Below are positions 1 to 64,000 of a DNA stretch of 64,000 nt, in pieces (position 1 is the stretch's first letter; every line of letters begins with the position of its first letter). The position numbers were made by a program, and so were the translations under genes. The notes beneath the pieces were generated by a model that was not told the origin of the DNA, ran no database searches, and saw only the letters and a list, made by a program, of their open reading frames with translations. This DNA is from Melieria omissa (lineage: Eukaryota; Arthropoda; Insecta; Diptera; Ulidiidae): positions 1,158,621 through 1,222,620 of the forward strand of contig CAXARI010000032.1 of assembly GCA_963971225.1 (NCBI GenBank). Direction: 5' to 3'.

Positions 1-74
1 GGGTCAATCTTCTCGCTATCTCAAATAATGCAGGAGAATTTCGTTGTGGAAAAGTGATATCGACCACATGATAC

Positions 75-428
75 ATCTATATCAGGGGTGCCCAAAGTCT
101 TCTTATGGAAAAGCAAAAACCAATACATTTAAAGTTGCCCAAAAAAATGCAAACAAATTATTTAATTAATTGAATTAGTTGAAAGCACATTGTGCATTTC
201 GCTTGACCCTTAAAATTATAAGTGAAAAAAATATAATGTTCCCATTTGTCATTGCCGAAAGGCCAACCAATCGCCAAAACAAAAACTACAACAACAAAAG
301 CATCTAATTTTTTTTCATACATAGAATTTCTTGAGGAAACAAAACAAAAATCCGCGCAGCCCCAACACGTGTTGCTTCGTTGCTGTCACAACAACGACTG
401 ATTGAAAGAATGCACCTCTGATCTATAT
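75..428. mobile_element. hAT-like MITE, first copy, with 8-bp target repeats
   Basis: The element is 83-420 (338 bp), flanked by ATCTATAT at 75-82 and 421-428. It begins CAGGGGTGCCCAAAG and ends AATGCACCTCTG. The last nine bases, reversed, read CAGAGGTGC, one mismatch from the start. An 8-bp target duplication and CAG-starting short inverted ends are established marks of hAT transposons. There is no coding capacity, so this is a non-autonomous element. The interior is AT-rich, with an A/T tract near 160-175, poly-T near 517-525 in the 1,180-bp unit frame counted from the MITE of the preceding unit (about 307-325 here), and an ACACGTGT palindrome at about 366-373. The same element lies 82 bases after the start of almost every unit. 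Orientation is unknown because no transposase is present. Confidence 0.82.
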
Positions 429-438
429 AACCAATCAA

Positions 439-563
439 ATGCTTGTGGAACCTAAGTACGCACAATCACTTTAATCAAAATGGCGTCAAAATTAAGCCAG
501 AGTGACCACCTTTCAATAATTTGGTAAATAAAAAAATATCCCACCGGCAGCATGATCGAAATT
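439..563 (+). repeat. Satellite monomer A (short), shown in unit 1
   Basis: This is the first of five diverged monomers that make up each unit. It starts ATGCTTGTGG, and 53 bases later has TTAAGCCAGAG, the same spacing as in the other monomers. It is only about 125 bp long, against 174-183 bp for B-D, so its 3' part is missing. The A/B border is uncertain by about 10-15 bases, because ATGATCGAAATTATGGCTG could belong to the tail of A or the head of B. Confidence 0.72.
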
Positions 564-740
564 ATGGCTGTTAAATCTCGACCCGTTAACGGATTTTAAT
601 AATATTATGCCTTATTATTTAGCTAGACTCGTATGCTTTCTATAATGGTATCAATCATCCTTCTATACCCCAAGGTTCGAAAGCAAATCGATTTGGAACG
701 GTGACTTTGAAAAAATTGCTACTTGGGTGCAACCACTAAA
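564..740 (+). repeat. Satellite monomer B, shown in unit 1
   Basis: A monomer of about 177 bp. The block TTAGCTAGACTCGTATGCTT at about +55 matches the TTAGCCAGAGTCTTATGCTT of monomer C. ATCGAT lies at +123, as in C (+122) and D (+123). It ends CAACCACTAAA just before the next ATGCTTGT, closely resembling the end of monomer C (CACCACTAAA). Confidence 0.78.
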
Positions 741-922
741 ATGCTTGTCAACACCAAATGCATAAGTGCATATTAATAATTGACCCCTTAAAATTTAGCC
801 AGAGTCTTATGCTTTCTATATTGGTCCCTAACTTTTCATTATCCTTCAGGAATAATGAGCATATCGATGCGCAAGGATAACATTGAAAAACTGCCTATTA
901 CAAAATACACACTCACCACTAA
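741..922 (+). repeat. Satellite monomer C, shown in unit 1
   Basis: A monomer of about 182 bp, from ATGCTTGTCAACACC to CACCACTAA. Landmarks are CCCCTTAAAATTTAGCCAGA near +47, GCTTTCTATATTGGTCC, CATTATCCTTCAGGAATAAT, ATCGATGCGCAAG at +122, and ACTGCCTATT near the end. It is the clearest reference for aligning the other four. Confidence 0.82.
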
Positions 923-1096: not shown

Positions 1097-1618
1097 ATGC
1101 TTGTAAAATATGATGATTCTAGGTTTATAGAAAAAATAATAACCTTAAAACCTAGCTGGAGTTTTGAGCTTTCATAAATGGGGTCAATCTTCTCGCTATC
1201 TCAAATAATGCAGGAGACTTTCGTTGTGGAAAAGTGATATCGACCACATGATACATCTATATCAGGGGTGCCCAAAGTCTTCTTATGGAAAAGCAAAAAC
1301 CAATACATTTAAAGTTGCCCAAAAAAATGCAAACAAATTATTTAATTAATTGAATTAGTTGAAAGCACATTGTGCATTTCGCTTGACCCTTAAAATTATA
1401 AGTGAAAAAAATATAATGTTCCCATTTGTCATTGCCGAAAGGCCAACCAATCGCCAAAACAAAAACTACAACAACAAAAGCATCTAATTTTTTTTCATAC
1501 ATAGAATTTCTTGAGGAAACAAAACAAAAATCCGCGCAGCCCCCACACGTGTTGCTTCGTTGCTGTCACAACAACGACTGATTGAAACAATGCACCTCTG
1601 ATCTATATAACCAATCAA
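1097..1618 (+). repeat. Satellite monomer E, split by the hAT-like MITE (unit 1/2 border)
   Basis: Monomer E starts ATGCTTGTAAAATATG at 1097 and has ACCTAGCTGGAG at +53, like the other monomers. It runs to 1262, is interrupted by the MITE at 1263-1600, and finishes at 1609-1618 (AACCAATCAA) just before monomer A of unit 2. The 8-bp ATCTATAT is present at 1255-1262 and again at 1601-1608. Taking out the MITE and one 8-bp copy leaves 176 bp, which fits the B-D lengths. The sum of A-E, the MITE and 8 bp is exactly 1,180. Confidence 0.85.
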
Positions 1619-2361
1619 ATGCTTGTGGAACCTAAGTACGCACAATCACTTTAATCAAAATGGCGTCAAAATTAAGCCAGAGTGACCACCTTTCAATAAT
1701 TTGGTAAATAAAAAAAATATCCCACCGGCAGCATGATCGAAATTATGGCTGTTAAATCTCGACCCGTTAACGGATTTTAATATTATTATGCCTTATTATT
1801 TAGCTACACTCGTATGCTTTCTATAATGGTATCAATCATCCTTCTATACCCCAAGATTCGAAAGCAAATCGATTTGGAACGGTGACTTTGAAAAAATTGC
1901 TACTTGGGTGCAACCACTAAAATGCTTGTCAACACCAAATGCATAAGTGCATATTAATAATTGACCCCTTAAAATTTAGCCAGAGTCTTATGCTTTCTAT
2001 ATTGGTCCCTAACTTTTCATTATCCTTCAGGAATAATGAGCATATCGATGCGCAAGGATAACATTGAAAAACTGCCTATTACAAAATACACACTCACCAC
2101 TAAAGTGCTTATAGATTCCAAACGGTATGGGTTACGTTAATAAAAAACCCCTTAAAATGTAGCTAGAGATTGCAGCTTTATCAAATTAAATCAATAATTT
2201 GATTACTATTAGGCAATCATGAACAGATCGATGCGCAAGAGTGACATTAAATGGCTGCCTACTGCAAAATCGATAAAATGCTTGTAAAATATGATGATTC
2301 TAGGTTTATAGAAAAAATAATAACCTTAAAACCTAGCTGGAGTTTTGAGCTTTCATAAATG

Positions 2362-21359: not shown

Positions 21360-23705
21360 GGGTCAATCTTCTCGCTATCTCAAATAATGCAGGAGAATTT
21401 CGTTGTGGAAAAGTGATATCGACCACATGATACATCTATATCAGGGGTGCCCAAAGTCTTCTTATGGAAAAGCAAAAACCAATACATTTAAAGTTGCCCA
21501 AAAAAATGCAAACAAATTATTTAATTAATTGAATTAGTTGAAAGGACATTGTGCATTTCGCTTGACCCTTAAAATTATAAGTGAAAAAAATATAATGTTC
21601 CCATTTGTCATTGCCGAAAGGCCAACCAATCGCCAAAACAAAAACTACAACAACAAAAGCATCTAATTTTTTTTCATACATAGAATTTCTTGAGGAAACA
21701 AAACAAAAATCCGCGCAGCCCCCACACGTGTTGCTTCGTTGCTGTCACAACAACGACTGATTAAAAGAATGCACCTCTGATCTATATAACCAATCAAATG
21801 CTTGTGGAACCTAAGTACGCACAATCACTTTAATCAAAATGGCGTCAAAATTAAGCCAGAGTGACCACCTTTCAATAATTTGGTAAATAAAAAAATATCC
21901 CACCGGCAGCATGATCGAAATTATGGCTGTTAAATCTCGACCCGTTAACGGATTTTAATAATATTATGCCTTATTATTTAGCTAGACTCGTATGCTTTCT
22001 ATAATGGTATCAATCATCCTTCTATACCCCAAGGTTCGAAAGCAAATCGATTTGGAACGGTGACTTTGAAAAAATTGCTACTTGGGTGCAACCACTAAAA
22101 TGCTTGTCAACACCAAATGCATAAGTGCATATTAATAATTGACCCCTTAAAATTTAGCCAGAGTCTTATGCTTTCTATATTGGTCCCTAACTTTTCATTA
22201 TCCTTCAGGAATAATGAGCATATCGATGCGCAAGGATAACATTGAAAAACTGCCTATTACAAAATACACACTCACCACTAAAGTGCTTATAGATTCCAAA
22301 CGGTATGGGTTACGTTAATAAAAAACCCCTTAAAATGTAGCTAGAGATTGCAGCTTTATCAAATTAAATCAATAATTTGATTACTATTAGGCAATCATGA
22401 ACAGATCGATGCGCAAGAGTGACATTAAATGGCTGCCTACTGCAAAATCGATAAAATGCTTGTAAAATATGATGATTCTAGGTTTATAGAAAAAATAATA
22501 ACCTTAAAACCTAGCTGGAGTTTTGAGCTTTCATAAATGGAGTCAATCTTCTCGCTATCTCAGATAATGCAGGAGAATTTCGTTGTGGAAAAGTGATATC
22601 GACCACATGATACATCTATATCAGGGGTGCCCAAAATCTTCTTATGGAAAAGCAAAATCCAATACATGTAAAGTTGCCCAAAAAAAATGCAAACAAATTA
22701 TTTAATTAATTAGTTGAAAGCACATTGTGCATTTCGCTTGACCCTTAAAATTATAAGTGAAAAAAATATAATGTTCCCATTTGTCATTGCCGAAAGGCCA
22801 ACCAATCGCCAACACAAAAAAGCATACACACAAAAACTACAACAACAAAAGCATCTAATTTGTTTTCATACATACAATCTCTTGAGGCAACAAAACAAAA
22901 ATCCGCGCAGCCCCCACACGTGTTGCTTCTTTGCTGTCACAACAACGACTGATTGAAACAATGCACCTCTGATCTATATAACCAATCAATCACTTTAATC
23001 AAAATGGCGTCAAAATTAAGCCAGAGTGACCACCTTTCACCAATTTGGTAAATAAAAAAAATATCCCACAGGCAGCATGATCGAAATTATGGCTGTTAAA
23101 TCTCGACCCGTTAACGGATTTTAATAATATTATGCCTTATTATTTAGCTAGACTCGTATGCTTTCTATAATGGTATCAATCATCCTTCTATACCCCAAGG
23201 TTCGAAAGCAAATCGATTTGGAACGGTGACTTTGAAAAAATTGCTACTTGGGTGCAACCACTAAAATGCTTGTCAACACCAAATGCATAAGTGCATATTA
23301 ATAATTGACCCCTTAAAATTTAGCCAGAGTCTTATGCTTTCTATATTGGTCCCTAACTTTTCATTATCCTTCAGGAATAATGAGCATATCGATGCGCAAG
23401 GATAACATTGAAAAACTGCCTATTACAAAATACACACTCACCACTAAAGTGCTTATAGATTCCAAACGGTATGGGTTACGTTAATAAAAAACCCCTTAAA
23501 ATGTAGCTAGAGATTGCAGCTTTATTAAATTAAATCAATAATTTGATTACTATTAGGCAATCATGAACAGATCGATGCGCAAGAGTGACATTAAATGGCT
23601 GCCTACTGCAAAATCGATAAAATGCTTGTAAAATATGATGATTCTAGGTTTATAGAAAAAATAATAACCTTAAAACCTAGCTGGAGTTTTGAGCTTTCAT
23701 AAATG
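21360..23705 (+). repeat. Units 19-20: two-unit block, 2,346 bp
   Basis: A normal unit 19 (marker GAAAGGACATTG) is followed by a divergent unit 20 of 1,166 bp. Unit 20 has the 27-bp monomer A loss, GGAGTCAATC at the start, and a 16-bp longer MITE interior containing AGCATACACACAAAAAC at about 22821. The pair is repeated as units 21-22 (shift 2,346 bp). Unit 20 returns to the common sequence in monomer D (TTTATTAAATTAAATC), unlike units 22 and 27, so it is a mosaic. Confidence 0.88.
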
Positions 23706-26700
23706 GGGTCAATCTTCTCGCTATCTCAAATAATGCAGGAGAATTTCGTTGTGGAAAAGTGATATCGACCACATGATACATCTATATCAGGGGTGCCCAA
23801 AGTCTTCTTATGGAAAAGCAAAAACCAATACATTTAAAGTTGCCCAAAAAAATGCAAACAAATTATTTAATTAATTGAATTAGTTGAAAGGACATTGTGC
23901 ATTTCGCTTGACCCTTAAAATTATAAGTGAAAAAAATATAATGTTCCCATTTGTCATTGCCGAAAGGCCAACCAATCGCCAAAACAAAAACTACAACAAC
24001 AAAAGCATCTAATTTTTTTTCATACATAGAATTTCTTGAGGAAACAAAACAAAAATCCGCGCAGCCCCCACACGTGTTGCTTCGTTGCTGTCACAACAAC
24101 GACTGATTAAAAGAATGCACCTCTGATCTATATAACCAATCAAATGCTTGTGGAACCTAAGTACGCACAATCACTTTAATCAAAATGGCGTCAAAATTAA
24201 GCCAGAGTGACCACCTTTCAATAATTTGGTAAATAAAAAAATATCCCACCGGCAGCATGATCGAAATTATGGCTGTTAAATCTCGACCCGTTAACGGATT
24301 TTAATAATATTATGCCTTATTATTTAGCTAGACTCGTATGCTTTCTATAATGGTATCAATCATCCTTCTATACCCCAAGGTTCGAAAGCAAATCGATTTG
24401 GAACGGTGACTTTGAAAAAATTGCTACTTGGGTGCAACCACTAAAATGCTTGTCAACACCAAATGCATAAGTGCATATTAATAATTGACCCCTTAAAATT
24501 TAGCCAGAGTCTTATGCTTTCTATATTGGTCCCTAACTTTTCATTATCCTTCAGGAATAATGAGCATATCGATGCGCAAGGATAACATTGAAAAACTGCC
24601 TATTACAAAATACACACTCACCACTAAAGTGCTTATAGATTCCAAACGGTATGGGTTACGTTAATAAAAAACCCCTTAAAATGTAGCTAGAGATTGCAGC
24701 TTTATCAAATTAAATCAATAATTTGATTACTATTAGGCAATCATGAACAGATCGATGCGCAAGAGTGACATTAAATGGCTGCCTACTGCAAAATCGATAA
24801 AATGCTTGTAAAATATGATGATTCTAGGTTTATAGAAAAAATAATAACCTTAAAACCTAGCTGGAGTTTTGAGCTTTCATAAATGGAGTCAATCTTCTCG
24901 CTATCTCAGATAATGCAGGAGAATTTCGTTGTGGAAAAGTGATATCGACCACATGATACATCTATATCAGGGGTGCCCAAAATCTTCTTATGGAAAAGCA
25001 AAATCCAATACATGTAAAGTTGCCCAAAAAAAATGCAAACAAATTATTTAATTAATTAGTTGAAAGCACATTGTGCATTTCGCTTGACCCTTAAAATTAT
25101 AAGTGAAAAAAATATAATGTTCCCATTTGTCATTGCCGAAAGGCCAACCAATCGCCAACACAAAAAAGCATACACACAAAAACTACAACAACAAAAGCAT
25201 CTAATTTGTTTTCATACATACAATCTCTTGAGGCAACAAAACAAAAATCCGCGCAGCCCCCACACGTGTTGCTTCGTTGCTGTCACAACAACGACTGATT
25301 GAAACAATGCACCTCTGATCTATATAACCAATCAATCACTTTAATCAAAATGGCGTCAAAATTAAGCCAGAGTGACCACCTTTCACCAATTTGGTAAATA
25401 AAAAAAATATCCCACAGGCAGCATGATCGAAATTATGGCTGTTAAATCTCGACCCGTTAACGGATTTTAATAATATTATGCCTTATTATTTAGCTAGACT
25501 CGTATGCTTTCTATAATGGTATCAATCATCCTTCTATACCCCAAGGTTCGAAAGCAAATCGATTTGGAACGGTGACTTTGAAAAAATTGCTACTTGGGTG
25601 CAACCACTAAAATGCTTGTCAACACCAAATGCATAAGTGCATATTAATAATTGACCCCTTAAAATTTAGCCAGAGTCTTATGCTTTCTATATTGGTCCCT
25701 AACTTTTCATTATCCTTCAGGAATAATGAGCATATCGATGCGCAAGGATAACATTGAAAAACTGCCTATTACAAAATACACACTCACCACTAAAGTGCTT
25801 ATAGATTCCAAACGGTATGGGTTACATTAATAAAAAACCCCTTAAAATGTAGCTAGAGATTGCAGCTTTATCAAATTAAATCAATAATTTCATTACTAAT
25901 CGGCAATCATGAACAATTCGATGCGCAAAACTGACATTAAATGGCTGCCTACTGCAAAATCGATTGGAAAAGTGATATCGACCACATGATACATCTATAT
26001 CAGGGGTGCCCAAAGTCTTCTTATGGAAAAGCAAAAACCAATACATTTAAAGTTGCCCAAAAAAATGCAAACAAATTAAATAATAATAAATAATTAAATA
26101 ATTAATTGAATTAGTTGAAAGCACATTGTGCATTTCGCTTGACCCTTAAAATTATAAGTGAAAAAAATATAATGTTCCCATTTGTCATTGCCGAAAGGCC
26201 AACCAATCGCCAAAACAAAAACTACAACAACAAAAGCATCTAATTTTTTTTCATACATAGAATTTCTTGAGGAAACAAAACAAAAATCCGCGCAGCCCCC
26301 ACACGTGTTGCTTCGTTGCTGTCACAACAACGACTGATTGAAAGAATGCACCTCTGATCTATATAACCAATCAAATGCTTGTGGAACCTAAGTACGCACA
26401 ATCACTTTAATCAAAATGGCGTCAAAATTAAGCCAGAGTGACCACCTTTCAATAATTTGGTAAATAAAAAAATATCCCACCGGCAGCATGATCGAAATTA
26501 TGGCTGTTAAATCTCGACCCGTTAACGGATTTTAATAATATTATGCCTTATTATTTAGCTAGACTCGTATGCTTTCTATAATGGTATCAATCATCCTTCT
26601 ATACCCCAAGGTTCGAAAGCAAATCGATTTGGAACGGTGACTTTGAAAAAATTGCTACTTGGGTGCAACCACTAAAATGCTTGTCAACACCAAATGCATA

Positions 26701-36317: not shown

Positions 36318-37058
36318 TCAGGTGTACAACTTTGCTTCCGCCGTTTTCCGATAGGTGGCTGTACCGGCTGAGGCTGGTTGAAATACATAGATGGTAATGC
36401 CTTTAAAGTGAGTGTGGACAGTGCCTAACGAATTGTCATTGCCGTTTCAGTGACAGTTGTTCTTGTTTTCGTATTATTCACGCTCGAAAATGTCCGTTTA
36501 TGTGCCCAATTCTCGCCATTTGCGGGAAGTTTTACTTTTCTGTTACAATTCGAAAAAAAATGCAGCTGAAGCGCATCGAATGCTCTCAGAAACTTACGGT
36601 GATGCTGCTCTGAGTGAAAGAACGTGTCGGGAGTGGTTTCAACGTTTTAAAAATGGAGGAGCGACATGACCAAGTCATCCTCCAACACGACAATGCTCGG
36701 CCTCACGTCGCAAAAGTGGTCAAAAAGTACCTGGAAACGCTGAAATGGGAAGTCTTGCCCCACCCGCCGTATTCCCCAGATGTCGCCCCTTCTGACTTCC
36801 ACCTATTCCGTTCGATGGCACACGGCCTGGCAGATCAACATTTTCAATCCTTCGAAGAATTGGAAAAATGGATTGCTTCATGGATAGCGTCAAAAGAGGA
36901 CTCCTTTTTTCGAGCCGGGATCCGAAAATTGCCGGAAAGATGGGAGAAAGTTGTCGCTAGCGACGGACAATACTTTGAATAATACATCTGTAAGCACTTT
37001 TTCGCAATAAAGCTTTTAATTTTGGAAAAAAACGGCGGAAGCAAAGTTGTACACCTGA
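36318..37058 (+). mobile_element. mariner copy 2, internally deleted, 741 bp
   Basis: TA lies at 36316-36317 and 37059-37060. The same 30-bp inverted ends, length and host position as copy 1 are present, shifted by 3,121 bp. It is the cleanest of the five copies: no extra stop in the C-terminal part, and GAGGACTCC where copy 1 has TAGGACTCC. The right flank has one private change (TTCATTCATAG instead of TTCATACATAG) at about 37087-37097. Confidence 0.96.
36490..36982 (+). pseudogene. mariner transposase remnant, copy 2 (least decayed)
   Basis: The N-terminal part is 36490-36669 (59 codons, then TGA). The C-terminal part is 36662-36982, in a second frame, ending GQYFE and then TAA. The C-terminal part keeps HDNARPH, the WEVLPHPPYSPD block, APSDFHLF and LPERWEKVVASDG, all typical of mariner. 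The two parts are joined at a deletion near 36657-36662 that removes the first catalytic aspartate, the second helix-turn-helix and the linker. The join is out of frame, so at most a 59-residue single helix-turn-helix peptide could be made. Confidence 0.93.
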
Positions 37059-40000
37059 TACAACAACAAAAGCATCTAATTTTTTTTCATTCATAGAATT
37101 TCTTGAGGAAACAAAACAAAAATCCGCGCAGCCCCCACACGTGTTGCTTCGTTGCTGTCACAACAACGACTGATTGAAAGAATGCACCTCTGATCTATAT
37201 AACCAATCAAATGCTTGTGGAACCTAAGTACGCACAATCACTTTAATCAAAATGGCGTCAAAATTATGCCAGAGTGACCACCTTTCAATAATTTGGTAAA
37301 TAAAAAAATATCCCACCGGCAGCATGATCGAAATTATGGCTGTTAAATCTCGACCCGTTAACGGATTTTAATAATATTATGCCTTATTATTTAGCTAGAC
37401 TCGTATGCTTTCTATAATGGTATCAATCATCCTTCTATACCCCAAGGTTCGAAAGCAAATCGATTTGGAACGGTGACTTTGAAAAAATTGCTACTTGGGT
37501 GCAACCACTAAAATGCTTGTCAACACCAAATGCATAAGTGCATATTAATAATTGACCCCTTAAAATTTAGCCAGAGTCTTATGCTTTCTATATTGGTCCC
37601 TAACTTTTCATTATCCTTCAGGAATAATGAGCATATCGATGCGCAAGGATAACATTGAAAAACTGCCTATTACAAAATACACACTCACCACTAAAGTGCT
37701 TATAGATTCCAAACGGTATGGGTTACGTTAATAAAAAACCCCTTAAAATGTAGCTAGAGATTGCAGCTTTATCAAATTAAATCAATAATTTGATTACTAT
37801 TAGGCAATCATGAACAGATCGATGCGCAAGAGTGACATTAAATGGCTGCCTACTGCAAAATCGATAAAATGCTTGTAAAATATGATGATTCTAGGTTTAT
37901 AGAAAAAATAATAACCTTAAAACCTAGCTGGAGTTTTGAGCTTTCATAAATGGGGTCAATCTTCTCGCTATCTCAAATAATGCAGGAGAATTTCGTTGTG
38001 GAAAAGTGATATCGACCACATGATACATCTATATCAGGGGTGCCCAAAGTCTTCTTATGGAAAAGCAAAAACCAATACATTTAAAGTTGCCCAAAAAAAT
38101 GCAAACAAATTAAATAATAATAAATAATTAAATAATTAATTGAATTAGTTGAAAGCACATTGTGCATTTCGCTTGACCCTTAAAATTATAAGTGAAAAAA
38201 ATATAATGTTCCCATTTGTCATTGCCGAAAGGCCAACCAATCGCCAAAACAAAAACTACAACAACAAAAGCATCTAATTTTTTTTCATACATAGAATTTC
38301 TTGAGGAAACAAAACAAAAATCCGCGCAGCCCCCACACGTGTTGCTTCGTTGCTGTCACAACAACGACTGATTGAAAGAATGCACCTCTGATCTATATAA
38401 CCAATCAAATGCTTGTGGAACCTAAGTACGCACAATCACTTTAATCAAAATGGCGTCAAAATTAAGCCAGAGTGACCACCTTTCAATAATTTTGTAAATA
38501 AAAAAATATCCCACCGGCAGCATGATCGAAATTATAGCTGTTAAATCTCGACCCGTTAACGGATTTTAATAATATTATGCCTTATTATTTAGCTAGACTC
38601 GTATGCTTTCTATAATGGTATCAATCATCCTTCTATACCCCAAGGTTCGAAAGCAAATCGATTTGGAACGGTGACTTTGAAAAAATTGCTACTTGGGTGC
38701 AACCACTAAAATGCTTGTCAACACCAAATGCATAAGTGCATATTAATAATTGACCCCTTAAAATTTAGCCAGAGTCTTATGCTTTCTATATTGGTCCCTA
38801 ACTTTTCATTATCCTTCAGGAATAATGAGCATATCGATGCGCAAGGATAACATTGAAAAACTGTCTATTACAAAATACACACTCACCACTAAAGTGCTTA
38901 TAGATTCCAAACGGTATGGGTTACGTTAATAAAAAAACCCCTTAAAATGTAGCTAGAGATTGCAGCTTTATCAAATTAAATCAATAATTTGATTACTATT
39001 AGGCAATCATGAACAGATCGATGCGCAAGAGTGACATTAAATGGCTGCCTACTGCAAAATCGATAAAATGCTTGTAAAATATGATGATTCTAGGTTTATA
39101 GAAAAAATAATAACCTTAAAACCTAGCTGGAGTTTTCAGCTTTCATAAATGGGGTCAATCTTCTCGCTATCTCAAATAATGCAGGAGAATTTCGTTGTGG
39201 AAAAGTGATATCGACCACATGATACATCTATATCAGGGGTGCCCAAAGTCTTCTTATGGAAAAGCAAAAACCAATACATTTAAAGTTGCCCAAAAAAATG
39301 CAAACAAATTATTTAATTAATTGAATTAGTTGAAAGCACATTGTGCATTTCGCTTGACCCTTAAAATTATAAGTGAAAAAAATATAATGTTCCCATTTGT
39401 CATTGCCGAAAGGCCAACCAATCGCCAAAACAAAAACTACAACAACAAAAGCATCTAATTTTTTTCATACATAGAATTTCTTGAGGAAACAAAACAAAAA
39501 TCCGCGCAGCCCCCACACGTGTTGCTTCGTTGCTGTCACAACAACGACTGATTGAAAGAATGCACCTCTGATCTATATAACCAATCAAATGCTTGAGGAA
39601 CCTAAGTACGCACAATCACTTTAATCAAAATGGCGTCAAAATTAAGCCAGAGTGACCACCTTTCACCAATTTGGTAAATAAAAAAAATATCCCACCGGCA
39701 GCATGATCGAAATTATGGCTGTTAAATCTCGACCCGTTAACGGATTTTAATATTATTATGCCTTATTATTTAGCTACACTCGTATGCTTTCTATAATGGT
39801 ATCAATCATCCTTCTATACCCCAAGGTTCGAAAGCAAATCGATTTGGAACGGTGACTTTGAAAAAATTGCTACTTGGGTGCAACCACTAAAATGCTTGTC
39901 AACACCAAATGCATAAGTGCATATTAATAATTGACCCCTTAAAATTTAGCCAGAGTCTTATGCTTTCTATATTGGTCCCTAACTTTTCATTATCCTTCAG

Positions 40001-43000
40001 GAATAATGAGCATATCGATGCGCAAGGATAACATTGAAAAACTGCCTATTACAAAATACACACTCACCACTAAAGTGCTTATAGATTCCAAACGGTATGG
40101 GTTACGTTAATAAAAAACCCCTTAAAATGTAGCCAGAGATTGCAGCTTTATCAAATTAAATCAATAATTTGATTACTATTAGGCAATCATGAACAGATCG
40201 ATGCGCAAGAGTGACATTAAATGGCTGCCTACTGCAAAATCGATAAAATGCTTGTAAAATATGATGATTCTAGGTTTATAGAAAAAATAATAACCTTAAA
40301 ACCTAGCTGGAGTTTTGAGCTTTCATAAATGGGGTCAATCTTCTCGCTATCTCAAATAATGCAGGAGAATTTCGTTGTGGAAAAGTGATATCGACCACAT
40401 GATACATCTATATCAGGGGTGCCCAAAGTCTTCTTATGGAAAAGCAAAAACCAATACATTTAAAGTTGCCCAAAAAAATGCAAACAAATTATTTAATTAA
40501 TTGAATTAGTTGAAAGCACATTGTGCATTTCGCTTGACCCTTAAAATTATAAGTGAAAACAATATAATGTTCCCATTTGTCATTGCCGAAAGGCCAACCA
40601 ATCGCCAAAACAAAAACTACAACAACAAAAGCATCTAATTTTTTTTCATACATAGAATTTCTTGAGGAAACAAAACAAAAATCCGCGCAGCCCCCACACG
40701 TGTTGCTTCGTTGCTGTCACAACAACGACTGATTGAAAGAATGCACCTCTGATCTATATAACCAATCAAATGCTTGTGGAACCTAAGTACGCACAATCAC
40801 TTTAATCAAAATGGCGTCAAAATTATGCCAGAGTTACCACCTTTCAATAATTTGGTAAATAAAAAAATATCCCACCGGCAGCATGATCGAAATTATGGCT
40901 GTTAAATCTCGACCCGTTAACGGATTTTAATAATATTATGCCTTATTATTTAGCTAGACTCGTATGCTTTCTATAATGGTATCAATCATCCTTCTATACC
41001 CCAAGGTTCGAAAGCAAATCGATTTGGAACGGTGACTTTGAAAAAATTGCTACTTGGGTGCAACCACTAAAATGCTTGTCAACACCAAATGCATAAGTGC
41101 ATATTAATAATTGACCCCTTAAAATTTAGCCAGAGTCTTATGCTTTCTATATTGGTCCCTAACTTTTCATTATCCTTCAGGAATAATGAGCATATCGATG
41201 CGCAAGGATAACATTGAAAAACTGCCTATTACAAAATACACACTCACCACTAAAGTGCTTATAGATTCCAAACGGTATGGGTTACGTTAATAAAAAACCC
41301 CTTAAAATGTAGCCAGAGATTGCAGCTTTATCAAATTAAATCAATAATTTGATTACTATTAGGCAATCATGAACAGATCGATGCGCAAGAGTGACATTAA
41401 ATGGCTGCCTACTGCAAAATCGATAAAATGCTTGTAAAATATGATGATTCTAGGTTTATAGAAAAAATAATAACCTTAAAACCTAGCTGGAGTTTTGAGC
41501 TTTCATAAATGGGGTCAATCTTCTCGCTATCTCAAATAATGCAGGAGAATTTCGTTGTGGAAAAGTGATATCGACCACATGATACATCTATATCAGGGGT
41601 GCCCAAAATCTTCTTATGGAAAAGCAAAAACCAATACATTTAAAGTTGCCCAAAAAAATGCAAACAAATTATTTAATTAATTGAATTAGTTGAAAGCACA
41701 TTGTGCATTTCGCTTGACCCTTAAAATTATAAGTGAAAAAAATATAATGTTCCCATTTGTCATTGCCGAAAGGCCAACCAATCGCCAAAACAAAAACTAC
41801 AACAACAAAAGCATCTAATTTTTTTTCATACATAGAATTTCTTGAGGAAACAAAACAAAAATCCGCGCAGCCCCCACACGTGTTGCTTCGTTGCTGTCAC
41901 AACAACGACTGATTGAAAGAATGCACCTCTGATCTATATAACCAATCAAATGCTTGTGGAACCTAAGTACGCACAATCACTTTAATCAAAATGGCGTCAA
42001 AATTAAGCCAGAGTGACCACCTTTCAATAATTTTGTAAATAAAAAAATATCCCACCGGCAGCATGATCGAAATTATAGCTGTTAAATCTCGACCCGTTAA
42101 CGGATTTTAATAATATTATGCCTTATTATTTAGCTAGACTCGTATGCTTTCTATAATGGTATCAATCATCCTTCTATACCCCAAGGTTCGAAAGCAAATC
42201 GATTTGGAACGGTGACTTTGAAAAAATTGCTACTTGGGTGCAACCACTAAAATGCTTGTCAACACCAAATGCATAAGTGCATATTAATAATTGACCCCTT
42301 AAAATTTAGCCAGAGTCTTATGCTTTCTATATTGGTCCCTAACTTTTCATTATCCTTCAGGAATAATGAGCATATCGATGCGCAAGGATAACATTGAAAA
42401 ACTGCCTATTACAAAATACACACTCACCACTAAAGTGCTTATAGATTCCAAACGGTATGGGTTACGTTAATAAAAAAACCCCTTAAAATGTAGCTAGAGA
42501 TTGCAGCTTTATCAAATTAAATCAATAATTTGATTACTATTAGGCAATCATGAACAGATCGATGCGCAAGAGTGACATTAAATGGCTGCCTACTGCAAAA
42601 TCGATAAAATGCTTGTAAAATATGATGATTCTAGGTTTATAGAAAAAATAATAACCTTAAAACCTAGCTGGAGTTTTCAGCTTTCATAAATGGGGTCAAT
42701 CTTCTCGCTATCTCAAATAATGCAGGAGAATTTCGTTGTGGAAAAGTGATATCGACCACATGATACATCTATATCAGGGGTGCCCAAAGTCTTCTTATGG
42801 AAAAGCAAAAACCAATACATTTAAAGTTGCCCAAAAAAATGCAAACAAATTATTTAATTAATTGAATTAGTTGAAAGCACATTGTGCATTTCGCTTGACC
42901 CTTAAAATTATAAGTGAAAAAAATATAATGTTCCCATTTGTCATTGCCGAAAGGCCAACCAATCGCCAAAACAAAAACTACAACAACAAAAGCATCTAAT

Positions 43001-45341
43001 TTTTTTTCATACATAGAATTTCTTGAGGAAACAAAACAAAAATCCGCGCAGCCCCCACACGTGTTGCTTCGTTGCTGTCACAACAACGACTGATTGAAAG
43101 AATGCACCTCTGATCTATATAACCAATCAAATGCTTGAGGAACCTAAGTACGCACAATCACTTTAATCAAAATGGCGTCAAAATTAAGCCAGAGTGACCA
43201 CCTTTCACCAATTTGGTAAATAAAAAAAATATCCCACCGGCAGCATGATCGAAATTATGGCTGTTAAATCTCGACCCGTTAACGGATTTTAATATTATTA
43301 TGCCTTATTATTTAGCTACACTCGTATGCTTTCTATAATGGTATCAATCATCCTTCTATACCCCAAGGTTCGAAAGCAAATCGATTTGGAACGGTGACTT
43401 TGAAAAAATTGCTACTTGGGTGCAACCACTAAAATGCTTGTCAACACCAAATGCATAAGTGCATATTAATAATTGACCCCTTAAAATTTAGCCAGAGTCT
43501 TATGCTTTCTATATTGGTCCCTAACTTTTCATTATCCTTCAGGAATAATGAGCATATCGATGCGCAAGGATAACATTGAAAAACTGCCTATTACAAAATA
43601 CACACTCACCACTAAAGTGCTTATAGATTCCAAACGGTATGGGTTACGTTAATAAAAAACCCCTTAAAATGTAGCCAGAGATTGCAGCTTTATCAAATTA
43701 AATCAATAATTTGATTACTATTAGGCAATCATGAACAGATCGATGCGCAAGAGTGACATTAAATGGCTGCCTACTGCAAAATCGATAAAATGCTTGTAAA
43801 ATATGATGATTCTAGGTTTATAGAAAAAATAATAACCTTAAAACCTAGCTGGAGTTTTGAGCTTTCATAAATGGGGTCAATCTTCTCGCTATCTCAAATA
43901 ATGCAGGAGAATTTCGTTGTGGAAAAGTGATATCGACCACATGATACATCTATATCAGGGGTGCCCAAAGTCTTCTTATGGAAAAGCAAAAACCAATACA
44001 TTTAAAGTTGCCCAAAAAAATGCAAACAAATTATTTAATTAATTGAATTAGTTGAAAGCACATTGTGCATTTCGCTTGACCCTTAAAATTATAAGTGAAA
44101 AAAATATAATGTTCCCATTTGTCATTGCCGAAAGGCCAACCAATCGCCAAAACAAAAACTACAACAACAAAAGCATCTAATTTTTTTTCATACATAGAAT
44201 TTCTTGAGGAAACAAAACAAAAATCCGCGCAGCCCCCACACGTGTTGCTTCGTTGCTGTCACAACAACGACTGATTGAAAGAATGCACCTCTGATCTATA
44301 TAACCAATCAAATGCTTGTGGAACCTAAGTACGCACAATCACTTTAATCAAAATGGCGTCAAAATTATGCCAGAGTTACCACCTTTCAATAATTTGGTAA
44401 ATAAAAAAATATCCCACCGGCAGCATGATCGAAATTATGGCTGTTAAATCTCGACCCGTTAACGGATTTTAATAATATTATGCCTTATTATTTATCTAGA
44501 CTCGTATGCTTTCTATAATGGTATCAATCATCCTTCTATACCCCAAGGTTCGAAAGCAAATCGATTTGGAACGGTGACTTTGAAAAAATTGCTACTTGGG
44601 TGCAACCACTAAAATGCTTGTCAACACCAAATGCATAAGTGCATATTAATAATTGACCCCTTAAAATTTAGCCAGAGTCTTATGCTTTCTATATTGGTCC
44701 CTAACTTTTCATTATCCTTCAGGAATAATGAGCATATCGATGCGCAAGGATAACATTGAAAAACTGCCTATTACAAAATACACACTCACCACTAAAGTGC
44801 TTATAGATTCCAAACGGTATGGGTTACGTTAATAAAAAACCCCTTAAAATGTAGCCAGAGATTGCAGCTTTATCAAATTAAATCAATAATTTGATTACTA
44901 TTAGGCAATCATGAACAGATCGATGCGCAAGAGTGACATTAAATGGCTGCCTACTGCAAAATCGATAAAATGCTTGTAAAATATGATGATTCTAGGTTTA
45001 TAGAAAAAATAATAACCTTAAAACCTAGCTGGAGTTTTGAGCTTTCATAAATGGGGTCAATCTTCTCGCTATCTCAAATAATGCAGGAGAATTTCGTTGT
45101 GGAAAAGTGATATCGACCACATGATACATCTATATCAGGGGTGCCCAAAATCTTCTTATGGAAAAGCAAAAACCAATACATTTAAAGTTGCCCAAAAAAA
45201 TGCAAACAAATTATTTAATTAATTGAATTAGTTGAAAGCACATTGTGCATTTCGCTTGACCCTTAAAATTATAAGTGAAAAAAATATAATGTTCCCATTT
45301 GTCATTGCCGAAAGGCCAACCAATCGCCAAAACAAAAACTA

Positions 45342-45765
45342 TCAGTTGTACAACTTTGCTTCCGCCGTTTTCCGATAGGTGGCTGTACCGGCTGAGGCTG
45401 GTTGAAATACATAGATGGTAATGCCTTTAAAGTGAGTGTGGACAGTGCCTAACGAATTGTCATTGCCGTTTCAGTGACAGTTGTTCTTGTTTTCGTATTA
45501 TTCACGCTCGAAAATGTCCGTTTATGTGCCCAATTCTCGCCATTTGCGGGAAGTTTTACTTTTCTGTTACAATTCGAAAAAAAAATGCAGCTGAAGCGCA
45601 TCGAATGCTCTCAGAAACTTACGGTGATGCTGCTCTGAGTGAAAGAACGTGTCGGGAGTGGTTTCAACGTTTTAAAAATGGAGGAGCGACATGACCAAGT
45701 CATCCTCCAACACGACAATGCTCGGCCTCACGTCGCAAAAGTGGTCAAAAAGTACCTGGAAACGC
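45342..45765 (+). mobile_element. mariner copy 3, 3'-truncated, 424 bp
   Basis: It starts at the same TA (45340-45341) as the full copies but ends abruptly after CTGGAAACGC at 45765, about 317 bp short of the 3' end. The left end has one changed base: TCAGTTGTAC instead of TCAGGTGTAC, at 45346. After the break the sequence returns to the MITE about 133 bp upstream of the insertion point and then runs through an unoccupied copy of that point. The MITE stretch 45208-45341 therefore appears again at 45766-45898. There is no right inverted end and no right TA duplication, so it cannot move. Confidence 0.95.
45514..45765 (+). pseudogene. mariner transposase fragment, copy 3
   Basis: The start is ATG 45514 (MSVYVPNS...). 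A run of nine A's (eight in copies 1, 2 and 5) at about 45577-45585 shifts the frame, and TGA follows at 45592-45594. The first aspartate region is deleted as in the other copies, and everything after residues ...KKYLET of the C-terminal part is cut off by the truncation. Only HDNARPH of the catalytic core remains. Confidence 0.9.
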
Positions 45766-48700
45766 AAATTATTAATTAATTGAATTAGTTGAAAGCACAT
45801 TGTGCATTTCGCTTGACCCTTAAAATTATAAGTGAAAAAAATATAATGTTCCCATTTGTCATTGCCGAAAGGCCAACCAATCGCCAAAACAAAAACTACA
45901 ACAACAAAAGCATCTAATTTTTTTTCATACATAGAATTTCTTGAGGAAACAAAACAAAAATCCGCGCAGCCCCCACACGTGTTGCTTCGTTGCTGTCACA
46001 ACAACGACTGATTGAAAGAATGCACCTCTGATCTATATAACCAATCAAATGCTTGTGGAACCTAAGTACGCACAATCACTTTAATCAAAATGGCGTCAAA
46101 ATTATGCCAGAGTGACCACCTTTCAATAATTTGGTAAATAAAAAAATATCCCACCGGCAGCATGATCGAAATTATGGCTGTTAAATCTCGACCCGTTAAC
46201 GGATTTTAATAATATTATGCCTTATTATTTAGCTAGACTCGTATGCTTTCTATAATGGTATCAATCATCCTTCTATACCCCAAGGTTCGAAAGCAAATCG
46301 ATTTGGAACGGTGACTTTGAAAAAATTGCTACTTGGGTGCAACCACTAAAATGCTTGTCAACACCAAATGCATAAGTGCATATTAATAATTGACCCCTTA
46401 AAATTTAGCCAGAGTCTTATGCTTTCTATATTGGTCCCTAACTTTTCATTATCCTTCAGGAATAATGAGCATATCGATGCGCAAGGATAACATTGAAAAA
46501 CTGCCTATTACAAAATACACACTCACCACTAAAGTGCTTATAGATTCCAAACGGTATGGGTTACGTTAATAAAAAACCCCTTAAAATGTAGCTAGAGATT
46601 GCAGCTTTATCAAATTAAATCAATAATTTGATTACTATTAGGCAATCATGAACAGATCGATGCGCAAGAGTGACATTAAATGGCTGCCTACTGCAAAATC
46701 GATAAAATGCTTGTAAAATATGATGATTCTAGGTTTATAGAAAAAATAATAACCTTAAAACCTAGCTGGAGTTTTGAGCTTTCATAAATGGGGTCAATCT
46801 TCTCGCTATCTCAAATAATACAGGAGAATTTCGTTGTGGAAAAGTGATATCGACCACATGATACATCTATATCAGGGGTGCCCAAAGTCTTCTTATGGAA
46901 AAGCAAAAACCAATACATTTAAAGTTGCCCAAAAAAATGCAAACAAATTAAATAATAATAAATAATTAAATAATTAATTGAATTAGTTGAAAGCACATTG
47001 TGCATTTCGCTTGACCCTTAAAATTATAAGTGAAAAAAATATAATGTTCCCATTTGTCATTGCCGAAAGGCCAACCAATCGCCAAAACAAAAACTACAAC
47101 AACAAAAGCATCTAATTTTTTTTCATACATAGAATTTCTTGAGGAAACAAAACAAAAATCCGCGCAGCCCCCACACGTGTTGCTTCGTTGCTGTCACAAC
47201 AACGACTGATTGAAAGAATGCACCTCTGATCTATATAACCAATCAAATGCTTGTGGAACCTAAGTACGCACAATCACTTTAATCAAAATGGCGTCAAAAT
47301 TAAGCCAGAGTGACCACCTTTCAATAATTTTGTAAATAAAAAAATATCCCACCGGCAGCATGATCGAAATTATAGCTGTTAAATCTCGACCCGTTAACGG
47401 ATTTTAATAATATTATGCCTTATTATTTAGCTAGACTCGTATGCTTTCTATAATGGTATCAATCATCCTTCTATACCCCAAGGTTCGAAAGCAAATCGAT
47501 TTGGAACGGTGACTTTGAAAAAATTGCTACTTGGGTGCAACCACTAAAATGCTTGTCAACACCAAATGCATAAGTGCATATTAATAATTGACCCCTTAAA
47601 ATTTAGCCAGAGTCTTATGCTTTCTATATTGGTCCCTAACTTTTCATTATCCTTCAGGAATAATGAGCATATCGATGCGCAAGGATAACATTGAAAAACT
47701 GTCTATTACAAAATACACACTCACCACTAAAGTGCTTATAGATTCCAAACGGTATGGGTTACGTTAATAAAAAAACCCCTTAAAATGTAGCTAGAGATTG
47801 CAGCTTTATCAAATTAAATCAATAATTTGATTACTATTAGGCAATCATGAACAGATCGATGCGCAAGAGTGACATTAAATGGCTGCCTACTGCAAAATCG
47901 ATAAAATGCTTGTAAAATATGATGATTCTAGGTTTATAGAAAAAATAATAACCTTAAAACCTAGCTGGAGTTTTCAGCTTTCATAAATGGGGTCAATCTT
48001 CTCGCTATCTCAAATAATGCAGGAGAATTTCGTTGTGGAAAAGTGATATCGACCACATGATACATCTATATCAGGGGTGCCCAAAGTCTTCTTATGGAAA
48101 AGCAAAAACCAATACATTTAAAGTTGCCCAAAAAAATGCAAACAAATTATTTAATTAATTGAATTAGTTGAAAGCACATTGTGCATTTCGCTTGACCCTT
48201 AAAATTATAAGTGAAAAAAATATAATGTTCCCATTTGTCATTGCCGAAAGGCCAACCAATCGCCAAAACAAAAACTACAACAACAAAAGCATCTAATTTT
48301 TTTCATACATAGAATTTCTTGAGGAAACAAAACAAAAATCCGCGCAGCCCCCACACGTGTTGCTTCGTTGCTGTCACAACAACGACTGATTGAAAGAATG
48401 CACCTCTGATCTATATAACCAATCAAATGCTTGAGGAACCTAAGTACGCACAATCACTTTAATCAAAATGGCGTCAAAATTAAGCCAGAGTGACCACCTT
48501 TCACCAATTTGGTAAATAAAAAAAATATCCCACCGGCAGCATGATCGAAATTATGGCTGTTAAATCTCGACCCGTTAACGGATTTTAATATTATTATGCC
48601 TTATTATTTAGCTACACTCGTATGCTTTCTATAATGGTATCAATCATCCTTCTATACCCCAAGGTTCGAAAGCAAATCGATTTGGAACGGTGACTTTGAA

Positions 48701-52998: not shown

Positions 52999-53422
52999 TC
53001 AGTTGTACAACTTTGCTTCCGCCGTTTTCCGATAGGTGGCTGTACCGGCTGAGGCTGGTTGAAATACATAGATGGTAATGCCTTTAAAGTGAGTGTGGAC
53101 AGTGCCTAACGAATTGTCATTGCCGTTTCAGTGACAGTTGTTCTTGTTTTCGTATTATTCACGCTCGAAAATGTCCGTTTATGTGCCCAATTCTCGCCAT
53201 TTGCGGGAAGTTTTACTTTTCTGTTACAATTCGAAAAAAAAATGCAGCTGAAGCGCATCGAATGCTCTCAGAAACTTACGGTGATGCTGCTCTGAGTGAA
53301 AGAACGTGTCGGGAGTGGTTTCAACGTTTTAAAAATGGAGGAGCGACATGACCAAGTCATCCTCCAACACGACAATGCTCGGCCTCACGTCGCAAAAGTG
53401 GTCAAAAAGTACCTGGAAACGC
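52999..53422 (+). mobile_element. mariner copy 4, 3'-truncated, 424 bp
   Basis: It matches copy 3 in length, altered left end (TCAGTTGTAC), nine-A run and breakpoint (CTGGAAACGC then AAATTATTAATT). The left TA is at 52997-52998. It is the block-B descendant of copy 3, 7,657 bp downstream, and not a separate insertion or truncation. Confidence 0.95.
53171..53422 (+). pseudogene. mariner transposase fragment, copy 4
   Basis: ATG at 53171, with the same extra A and early TGA as copy 3 (at 53249-53251). No complete domain beyond part of the N-terminal helix-turn-helix can be read. Non-functional. Confidence 0.9.
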
Positions 53423-60400: not shown

Positions 60401-61581
60401 GGGGTCAATCTTCTCGCTATCTCAAATAATGCAGGAGAATTTCGTTGTGGAAAAGTGATATCGACCACATGATACATCTATATCAGGGGTGCCCAAAGTC
60501 TTCTTATGGAAAAGCAAAAACCAATACATTTAAAGTTGCCCAAAAAAATGCAAACAAATTATTTAATTAATTGAATTAGTTGAAAGCACATTGTGCATTT
60601 CGCTTGACCCTTAAAATTATAAGTGAAAAAAATATAATGTTCCCATTTGTCATTGCCGAAAGGCCAACCAATCGCCAAAACAAAAACTACAACAACAAAA
60701 GCATCTAATTTTTTTTCATACATAGAATTTCTTGAGGAAACAAAACAAAAATCCGCGCAGCCCCCACACGTGTTGCTTCGTTGCTGTCACAACAACGACT
60801 GATTGAAAGAATGCACCTCTGATCTATATAACCAATCAAATGCTTGTGGAACCTAAGTACGCACAATCACTTTAATCAAAATGGCGTCAAAATTAAGCCA
60901 GAGTGACCACCTTTCAATAATTTGGTAAATAAAAAAATATCCCACCGGCAGCATGATCGAAATTATGGCTGTTAAATCTCGACCCGTTAACGGATTTTAA
61001 TAATATTATGCCTTATTATTTAGCTAGACTCGTATGCTTTCTATAATGGTATCAATCATCCTTCTATACCCCAAGGTTCGAAAGCAAATCGATTTGGAAC
61101 GGTGACTTTGAAAAAATTGCTACTTGGGTGCAACCACTAAAATGCTTGTCAACACCAAATGCATAAGTGCATATTAATAATTGACCCCTTAAAATTTAGC
61201 CAGAGTCTTATGCTTTCTATATTGGTCCCTAACTTTTCATTATCCTTCAGGAATAATGAGCATATCGATGCGCAAGGATAACATTGAAAAACTGCCTATT
61301 ACAAAATACACACTCACCACTAAAGTGCTTATAGATTCCAAACGGTATGGGTTACGTTAATAAAAAACCCCTTAAAATGTAGCTAGAGATTGCAGCTTTA
61401 TCAAATTAAATCAATAATTTGATTACTATTAGGCAATCATGAACAGATCGATGCGCAAGAGTGACATTAAATGGCTGCCTACTGCAAAATCGATAAAATG
61501 CTTGTAAAATATGATGATTCTAGGTTTATAGAAAAAATAATAACCTTAAAACCTAGCTGGAGTTTTCAGCTTTCATAAATG
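54448..61581 (+). repeat. Units 45-50, without mariner
   Basis: Units 45, 48 and 49 are long-tract (1,198 bp); units 46, 47 and 50 are 1,180 bp. Units 46 and 48 share ATTACTAATTGACC in monomer C (near 56417 and 58796), so the marker crosses the long/short tract classes. Unit 47 has AATTATGCC, CTTTGTATAATGG and AACACCTTAAAA. Unit 49 ends TTTTAAGC and unit 50 ends TTTTCAGC. No gene is seen. Confidence 0.93.
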
Positions 61582-61869
61582 GGGTCAATCTTCTCGCTAT
61601 CTCAAATAATGCAGGAGAATTTCGTTGTGGAAAAGTGATATCGACCACATGATACATCTATATCAGGGGTGCCCAAAGTCTTCTTATGGAAAAGCAAAAA
61701 CCAATACATTTAAAGTTGCCCAAAAAAATGCAAACAAATTATTTAATTAATTGAATTAGTTGAAAGCACATTGTGCATTTCGCTTGACCCTTAAAATTAT
61801 AAGTGAAAAAAATATAATGTTCCCATTTGTCATTGCCGAAAGGCCAACCAATCGCCAAAACAAAAACTA

Positions 61870-62610
61870 TCAGGTGTACAACTTTGCTTCCGCCGTTTTC
61901 CGATAGGTGGCTGTACCGGCTGAGGCTGGTTGAAATACATAGATGGTAATGCCTTTAAAGTGAGTGTGGACAGTGCCTAACGAATTGTCATTGCCGTTTC
62001 AGTGACAGTTGTTCTTGTTTTCGTATTATTCACGCTCGAAAATGTCCGTTTATGTGCCCAATTCTCGCCATTTGCGGGAAGTTTTACTTTTCTGTTACAA
62101 TTCGAAAAAAAATGCAGCTGAAGCGCATCGAATGCTCTCAGAAACTTACGGTGATGCTGCTCTGAGTGAAAGAACGTGTCGGGAGTGGTTTCAACGTTTT
62201 AAAAATGGAGGAGCGACATGACCAAGTCATCCTCCAACACGACAATGCTCGGCCTCACGTCGCAAAAGTGGTCAAAAAGTACCTGGAAACGCTGAAATGG
62301 GAAGTCTTGCCCCACCCGCCGTATTCCCCAGATGTCGCCCCTTCTGACTTCCACCTATTCCGTTCGATGGCACACGGCCTGGCAGATCAACATTTTCAAT
62401 CCTTCGAAGAATTGGAAAAATGAATTGCTTCATGGATAGCGTCAAAAGAGGACTCCTTTTTTCGAGCCGGGATCCGAAAATTGCCGGAAAGATGGGAGAA
62501 AGTTGTCGCTAGCGACGGACAATACTTTGAATAATACATCTGTAAGCACTTTTTCGCAATAAAGCTTTTAATTTTGGAAAAAAACGGCGGAAGCAAAGTT
62601 GTACACCTGA
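61870..62610 (+). mobile_element. mariner copy 5, internally deleted, 741 bp
   Basis: TA lies at 61868-61869 and 62611-62612. Both 30-bp inverted ends are intact and identical to copies 1 and 2. It sits at the same MITE position although it lies 25,552 bp from copy 2. It lacks the left-flank change ATTGAATTAATTG of copies 1 and 2 (it has ATTGAATTAGTTG), so it belongs to another branch of the same amplified insertion. Confidence 0.96.
62042..62534 (+). pseudogene. mariner transposase remnant, copy 5
   Basis: The N-terminal part is 62042-62221, ending in the same frameshifting internal deletion as copies 1 and 2. The C-terminal part starts at about 62214 and has a private stop, TGA at 62421-62423, where the others have TGG (EKWIASW). 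The sequence after that stop still matches the family up to TAA at 62532-62534. Non-functional. Confidence 0.92.
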
Positions 62611-62824
62611 TACAACAACAAAAGCATCTAATTTTTTTTCATCATCATTTAAATCAATAATTTGATTACTATTAGGCAATCATGAACAGATCGATGCGCA
62701 AGAGTGACATTAAATGGCTGCCTACTGCAAAATCGATAAAATGCTTGTAAAATATGATGATTCTAGGTTTATAGAAAAAATAATAACCTTAAAACCTAGC
62801 TGGAGTTTTCAGCTTTCATAAATG

Positions 62825-64000
62825 GGGTCAATCTTCTCGCTATCTCAAATAATGCAGGAGAATTTCGTTGTGGAAAAGTGATATCGACCACATGATACAT
62901 CTATATCAGGGGTGCCCAAAGTCTTCTTATGGAAAAGCAAAAACCAATACATTTAAAGTTGCCCAAAAATATGCAAACAAATTATTTAATTAATTGAATT
63001 AGTTGAAAGCACATTGTGCATTTCGCTTGACCCTTAAAATTATAAGTGAAAAAAATATAATGTTCCCATTTGTCATTGCCGAAAGGCCAACCAATCGCCA
63101 AAACAAAAACTACAACAACAAAAGCATCTAATTTTTTTTCATACATAGAATTTCTTGAGGAAACAAAACAAAAATCCGCGCAGCCCCCACACGTGTTGCT
63201 TCGTTGCTGTCACAACAACGACTGATTGAAAGAATGCACCTCTGATCTATATAACCAATCAAATGCTTGTGGAACCTAAGTACGCACAATCACTTTAATC
63301 AAAATGGCGTCAAAATTAAGCCAGAGTGACCACCTTTCAATAATTTGGTAAATAAAAAAATATCCCACCGGCAGCATGATCGAAATTATGGCTGTTAAAT
63401 CTCGACCCGTTAACGGATTTTAATAATATTATGCCTTATTATTTAGCTAGACTCGTATGCTTTCTATAATGGTATCAATCATCCTTCTATACCCCAAGGT
63501 TCGAAAGCAAATCGATTTGGAACGGTGACTTTGAAAAAATTGCTACTTGGGTGCAACCACTAAAATGCTTGTCAACACCAAATGCATAAGTGCATATTAA
63601 TAATTGACCCCTTAAAATTTAGCCAGAGTCTTATGCTTTCTATATTGGTCCCTAACTTTTTATTATCCTTCAGGAATAATGAGCATATCGATGCGCAAGG
63701 ATAACATTGAAAAACTGCCTATTACAAAATACACACTCACCACTAAAGTGCTTATAGATTCCAAACGGTATGGGTTACGTTAATAAAAAACCCCTTAAAA
63801 TGTAGCTAGAGATTGCAGCTTTATCAAATTAAATCAATAATTTGATTACTATTCGGCAATCATGAACAGATCGATGCGCAAGAGTGACATTAAATGGCTG
63901 CCTACTGCAAAATCGATAAAATGCTTGTAAAATATGATGATTCTAGGTTTATAGAAAAAATAATAACCTTAAAACCTAGCTGGAGTTTTGAGCTTTCATA
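62825..64000 (+). repeat. Unit 52, last unit in the window
   Basis: A short-tract unit, complete except for its last few bases, which fall beyond the window. It has AAAAATATGC (as in unit 4) and ACTATTCGGCAATC (as in unit 3), so it mixes markers of the divergent lineage with common sequence. The array clearly continues to the right. Confidence 0.93.
62899..63252. mobile_element. hAT-like MITE, last copy (unit 52)
   Basis: The element is 62907-63244, again 338 bp, with ATCTATAT at 62899-62906 and 63245-63252. The copy is intact and empty of mariner. That its ends and target repeats remain the same across 60 kb shows that the array inherited one insertion, not 52 separate ones. Confidence 0.82.

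Follow-up and report, generated by a model that had tools for sequence, protein, structure and literature searches.

In Messor ants, Mboumar mariners are inserted in the miniature inverted-repeat transposable element (MITE) IRE-130, which is itself part of a satellite DNA (PMC2581405, which cites Palomeque et al. 2006). According to the available text of this report, five mariner copies occupy one TA in several copies of the 130-bp IRE-130, several Mboumar copies keep an intact reading frame, and an insertion hot spot was considered, yet an in vitro assay gave no preference. A similar nesting is found in the stretch of DNA studied here (the window, 64,000 bp), which spans positions 1158621 to 1222620 of contig C36 of the ulidiid fly Melieria omissa and forms the terminal part of this 1.22-Mb contig; the assembly has 490 Mb, with about 472 Mb on scaffolds C1 to C4. 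In the window, a mariner lies within a 338-bp, hAT-like element, and the latter lies within monomer E of a satellite unit. As in Messor, the mariner occupies one TA in several copies of a satellite-borne MITE. Unlike in Messor, as far as that system is described in the available text, the MITE has become a fixed component of the five-monomer unit, the order of events can be read from sister arrays that lack it, and co-amplification is visible on contiguous DNA. An earlier note on this DNA had called the arrangement unusual, which in view of Messor was somewhat overstated. The kind of event is already known, and it is the complete before-and-after record that stands out.

MITE-derived satellites are listed in reviews (PMC9659126, PMC12628747, in the parts available), and in the literature covered (titles and abstracts, with few subscription papers) we recognized no description of a multi-monomer unit that contains a fixed MITE and has sister arrays lacking it. 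The 338-bp element resembles the noncoding Drosophila MITE Mar, which belongs to the Buster group of hAT elements and has the terminal inverted repeat (TIR) CAG(G/A)GGTAGGC and an 8-bp target site duplication (TSD) of the form nnnTAnnn (PMC3517528, available text). Mar measures 610 bp and is dispersed, whereas the 338-bp element is known inside the satellite only, and the likeness is one of ends and target. In a fungus gnat, long complex terminal tandem repeats are described, with related satellites that are also pericentromeric (PMC12051294, available text). As in the gnat, units built of ~175-bp, nucleosome-length repeats stand at scaffold ends in the fly; unlike in the described gnat repeats, there are five diverged monomers, and the interior and terminal versions differ by the MITE and a shortened monomer.

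The whole window is a single tandem array (Table 1), in which alignment of a reference unit along the window gave 52 unit starts with a unit size of mostly 1,180 to ~1,199 bp. Five monomers follow each other in the order E-A-B-C-D with a mutual likeness of 48-63%; their lengths are 175 bp (E, MITE removed), 127 bp (A, shortened), 176 bp (B), 183 bp (C) and 174 bp (D). In alignments of more than 1,000 bp, identity to the reference unit was at least 97% in 45 of 49 cases (minimum 93.3%), and individual units carry distinct linked variants. The window is thus a higher-order satellite, in which several diverged monomers are repeated as one homogeneous unit. Tandem Repeats Finder gave no result, the unit being longer than its maximum period. 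A divergent class of units is present at 2361-3510, 22539-23704, 24885-25964 and 30677-31756; it has a 27-bp deletion immediately right of the MITE and common substitutions, and it contains the MITE too.

Table 1 Features of the window from Melieria omissa (positions within the 64,000-bp stretch).
Feature	Positions	Strand	Remarks
MITE-bearing higher-order satellite array	1..64000	+	52 units; first and last clipped by the window ends
Representative unit	1180..2360	+	1,181 bp, taken as reference
Monomer E of reference unit	1143..1663	+	split by MITE; 175 bp without MITE
Monomer A	1664..1790	+	shortened; 182-183 bp in MITE-free stretches
Monomer B	1791..1966	+	
Monomer C	1967..2149	+	
Monomer D	2150..2321	+	
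Left 8-bp target duplication	1255..1262	+	ATCTATAT
hAT-like MITE (putative)	1263..1600	+	338 bp; ends CAGGGGTGC / CAGAGGTGC
Right 8-bp target duplication	1601..1608	+	ATCTATAT
2,738-bp stretch	23128..25865	+	exact repeat at 28920, spacing 5,792 bp
Mariner copy a	33197..33937	+	741 bp, complete, within MITE; TA at 33195-33196 and 33938-33939
Mariner copy b	36318..37058	+	complete; differs from a at 3 positions
5,155-bp stretch	37983..43137	+	exact repeat at 46821, spacing 8,838 bp (several-unit block duplicated)
2,960-bp stretch	43860..46819	+	contains mariner copy c; exact repeat at 51517, spacing 7,657 bp
Mariner copy c	45342..45764	+	truncated, joined to MITE at ~unit position 155; MITE part doubled
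Mariner copy d	52999..53421	+	no difference from c, junction shared; 7,657 bp beyond c
Mariner copy e	61870..62610	+	complete; unit missing to the right (~unit position 308 to 1007)

The inserted element reads CAGGGGTGCC...TGCACCTCTG and is flanked on each side by ATCTATAT. With up to three errors allowed, its left end was found at the same place in all 52 units and both ends in 51 of them; in the exception, unit 61581, the right end has been removed by a deletion. Where no mariner is present the element measures 334-360 bp, owing to internal indels. Exact 8-bp repeats flank 77 segments of 100-699 bp starting in the unit, and by eye the MITE alone has ends resembling inverted repeats. The ends can be written CAG(G/A)GGTGC and the target ATC-TA-TAT fits nnnTAnnn, which is weak as a match since it comes from a single site. 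Because of the TSD, the ends and the resemblance to Mar and Buster elements, the 338-bp element is tentatively assigned to hAT; its 8-bp target duplication, short CAG(G/A)GG TIR and Buster-type target agree with this assignment. We term it MITE-like and do not regard it as a proven family. From its one place in every unit read, we infer a single origin of the insertion.

Units without the MITE exist in the same genome. These five-monomer units of ~885-905 bp form separate arrays. A pattern for the MITE-less monomer E (up to 3 mismatches) gave 445 matches genome-wide and none with the reversed control; among the 100 matches listed, all lie on C1, with a spacing of mostly 885-905 bp. Six MITE-free stretches, on C1 near 0.16, 47.36 and 155.79 Mb and at the right termini of C1 and C3 and the left terminus of C4, all have the same monomer order, a monomer E that is unbroken at the insertion place and a full-length monomer A. 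At the place where the MITE sits between two ATCTATAT in the window, all six have a single ATCTGCAT. The longer string ATACATCTGCATAACCAAT is found in 6/6 stretches, 2-4 times each, and the window units read there ACATCTATAT, MITE, ATCTATATAACC. When the window E was aligned with the six MITE-free E, the large insertion began in each case at position 1258, within the left target repeat; the aligner gave it a length of 333 bp and spread the remainder over small gaps.

A monomer tree was built from the window, the six MITE-free stretches and two further MITE-bearing stretches, the window providing the sole MITE-bearing E row and the two further stretches no E. In this tree the monomers group by letter and not by array (support values: A 1.000, B 0.997, D 0.979, E 0.995), and C is separated from the rest with a support of 0.989. 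Window monomers are 84-97% identical to the same letter in the MITE-free stretches and at most 66% to other letters. Because the monomers pair by letter and E is unbroken in the MITE-free arrays, the five-monomer unit predates the MITE. The order of events in the earlier note is borne out by these findings, as is its description of a TA-flanked mariner within a 338-bp element within monomer E; to the order is added that the five-monomer unit was already present before the MITE. Two of the forms that the note had named as informative do exist, namely a MITE-free monomer E, found in the window's own genome, and units without mariner, which make up 47 of the 52 in the window. The third, the MITE at unique sites, was not found among near-exact ends. 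The note's size for monomer E, 176 bp, has to be replaced by the 175 bp given above, and the share of units with mariner, 5 of 52, is a figure that the note lacks.

Some observations weigh against this history. The alignment of monomer A to the remaining set is not clear (E versus A, z = 2.0). The inverted ends CAGGGGTGC and CAGAGGTGC agree at only 8 of 9 positions, and a search limited to near-exact ends, not diverged copies, detected the MITE nowhere but in the satellite. The empty sites read ATCTGCAT and not exactly ATCTATAT, and no empty unit with the exact ATCTATAT was found among 9 matches, the 3 that were read being MITE 3' ends. In an excision scan guided by monomers B to D alone, which is too blunt for this purpose, excision at exactly the TSD took rank 303 of 31,977; the placements with the best summed score lay ~13-19 bp further left.

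Two alternatives gain from these observations. The 338-bp segment could be unrelated DNA captured by the satellite and no transposon at all, as its inverted ends are short and imperfect and no dispersed copies were found: near-exact MITE ends with altered flanks (base changes at -8 in 20 left ends, at +1 in 12 right ends) lie in the satellite in 32 of 32 cases. We regard capture as very unlikely, since the segment combines an 8-bp target repeat with the inverted ends and the Buster-type target, and the sibling arrays have an empty site with the 8 bp once, in a slightly different form. Alternatively, the MITE could have been lost or precisely excised from the MITE-free arrays, which would then not resemble the ancestral state. 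Transposons can excise, and a MITE-free unit with the exact target was not found. But the MITE-free units differ along the entire unit (84-97% by monomer), retain the full monomer A that is partly lost in MITE-bearing units, and have one target copy in separate arrays, which makes such a derivation even less probable than capture. Insertion of the MITE into an existing five-monomer unit remains by far the better account.

Apparent empty sites with the exact target on C2 at 61.47 and 61.54 Mb were rejected because the DNA proved to consist of MITE 3' ends. Likewise, the 20 matches with an altered 5' flank, 12 of which were annotated in detail, were rejected as dispersed copies; they are satellite units with other insertions or a point change. 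By eye, the altered left flank is caused by a ~619-bp element in 18 of 20 matches, by a ~521-bp foldback element in one and by point changes in one. The ~619-bp element is bounded by inverted ends and has a TA target, namely the TA in the left target repeat of the MITE; its reading frame by eye resembles a Tc1/mariner N-terminus. It is carried by loci L009-L028 except L014 and L024, in opposite orientation in L026. The foldback element occupies the same TA at L024:985-1508.

Mariner is present in 5 of the 52 window units, always at one TA of the MITE; the unit contains 98 TA, 16 of them in the MITE, and a single one is occupied by mariner. All three complete copies have TA on either side and a TIR that is perfect across 30 bp, and copies a, b and e differ pairwise at 1-4 of 741 positions. 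In comparison to the full-length relative P0121, they match codons 1-56 at 100% and codons 238-345 at 96-98%, with codons 57-237 deleted. The N-terminal piece is a Mos1-type helix-turn-helix (HTH_48, 1.7e-22). The DDE_3 profile score of 20.8 bits lies under the cut-off of 28.6; this piece matches Mos1 structures at 3.5e-27, and the N-terminal piece matches Mos1 structures as well. A protein of Ceratitis capitata has 90% identity over 65% of the joined mariner query. Judged by its TA target, ~30-bp TIR, Mos1-type helix-turn-helix and DDE domain, the element can be classed as a mariner (Tc1/mariner, DD34D). Going by Mos1, the deleted codons 57-237 hold the first catalytic D. The retained part includes the last two D, at 249 and 284 of P0121, with 34 residues between them. 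The catalytic triad is thus incomplete, and the element is a non-autonomous derivative.

In the genome-wide mariner search, the best 40 of 422 candidates were scored, 3 of them in the window and 37 elsewhere with their flanks fetched. The MITE TA is common to 39 of these 40 (the 3 window copies and 36 of 37 fetched flanks). The sole exception, at 36.29 Mb of C4, lies in a (TATAA)n tract. Its match extends over all of the 741-bp form, an indication that the mariner had already undergone its deletion before it jumped. The full nested arrangement is also present at locus L072 on C1.

It could be argued that mariner inserted repeatedly and independently at a TA of the MITE that acts as a hot spot, a possibility also considered in Messor (PMC2581405, available text). 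Repeated hits do occur in the neighbourhood: the TA in the MITE's left target repeat was hit at least three times, by the ~619-bp element in both orientations and by the ~521-bp foldback element, so that a TA in this place can be hit repeatedly. Nevertheless, the complete mariner copies have one internal deletion in common and occupy one of 98 TA of the unit, their orientation is uniform in 36 of 37 fetched flanks (on the fetched side of the match) and in the 3 window copies, and the truncated copies c and d have an identical junction inside a duplicated block. Independent insertion is therefore highly improbable in our view, and a mariner that was multiplied together with its unit is preferred.

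Duplication of multi-unit blocks follows from the exact repeats of 5,155, 2,960 and 2,738 bp (Table 1), and mariner copies c and d are members of one duplicated pair of stretches. Nucleotide diversity is 0.0093 in the MITE and 0.0069 in the remaining unit (51 units, with unit 61581 dropped); when the four divergent units are left out, the values are 0.0062 and 0.0053. Many pairs of variant sites show all four combinations. Given these combinations and the similar diversity, exchange or conversion acts in the MITE as it does elsewhere in the unit. Genome-wide, 7,159 MITE-left junctions (up to 1 mismatch) were counted against none for the reversed control, and by multiplication the MITE-bearing satellite amounts to ~8.4 Mb, which is 1.7% of the assembled sequence. 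It is hardly conceivable that the arrangement is an artefact of collapsed or misjoined repeats. Units that are 99% identical are indeed hard to assemble, and many satellite contigs are unplaced, but mariner-in-MITE junctions were found on C1, C3 and several unplaced contigs, the units have distinct linked variants, and both kinds of array are also present on the largest scaffolds.

The MITE-bearing matches seen lie on C1 at 82.4-84.9 Mb, on C2 at 61.5-63.0 Mb, on C3 at 0-0.63 Mb and on unplaced contigs, that is, in the middle of two scaffolds and at one end of a third, from which we infer a centromere-like position. Of the eight termini of C1 to C4, three are in MITE-free arrays, one is in a MITE-bearing array and four are in neither, a scaffold end not necessarily being a telomere. 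The MITE-free array may be a telomere-type repeat. The right ends of C1 (L060) and C3 (L065) and the left end of C4 (L066) lie inside MITE-free arrays, and the orientation of these arrays to the end varies.

With regard to related taxa, an identification of the window's satellite with ATOC180 of the Drosophila obscura group was dropped; cytochrome c oxidase subunit I (COI) is nearest to that of tephritids and other acalyptrates, and the fly is accordingly taken to be an acalyptrate. The COI query was a nuclear copy with a score equal to that of the presumed mitochondrial contig, and it has 97% identity to Ceratitis, Bactrocera and Homoneura proteins. Several long copies of mitochondrial COI are present in the nuclear genome at various places on C1, C3 and C4. 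No match was obtained when viral and prokaryote contigs were scanned with exact patterns.

Our analysis shows the anatomy of the nested elements, the empty site, the order of events and the co-amplification, and supports transposon hitch-hiking on satellite amplification as the mechanism. We propose the following history, which taken as a whole is very probably the best explanation. The starting point was an older five-monomer unit of ~900 bp with the order E-A-B-C-D. Monomer E then received, probably only once, a non-autonomous, hAT-like element of 338 bp and of Buster/Mar type, which duplicated its 8-bp target. The MITE-bearing unit, in which A is also shortened, was multiplied to copies numbering in the thousands and occupying three or more large scaffolds, probably driven by unequal exchange and conversion, and within it the MITE is copied and homogenized as is the remainder. 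At a later time a 741-bp mariner, presumably with codons 57-237 already missing, entered the MITE of a single unit at one TA, and this mariner-bearing unit was in turn multiplied through block duplication.

For transposons in satellites, the usual questions are which of the two came first and whether a hot spot or co-amplification is responsible. Here, MITE-free and MITE-bearing units, the empty site and descendants in the thousands are all present in one genome, and both questions are answered. The MITE reached ~7,000 copies by riding on the satellite, and no dispersed copy has been found so far among near-exact ends. It is conceivable, although rather doubtful, that the MITE marks and maybe helped to cause a split of the satellite into two chromosomal compartments, one with a terminal, telomere-type unit that lacks the MITE, the other with an interior unit that carries it at centromere-like positions. 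If this were true, a single transposon insertion would have seeded a new interior satellite. The MITE offers a marker for the relation of terminal and interior satellites in flies.

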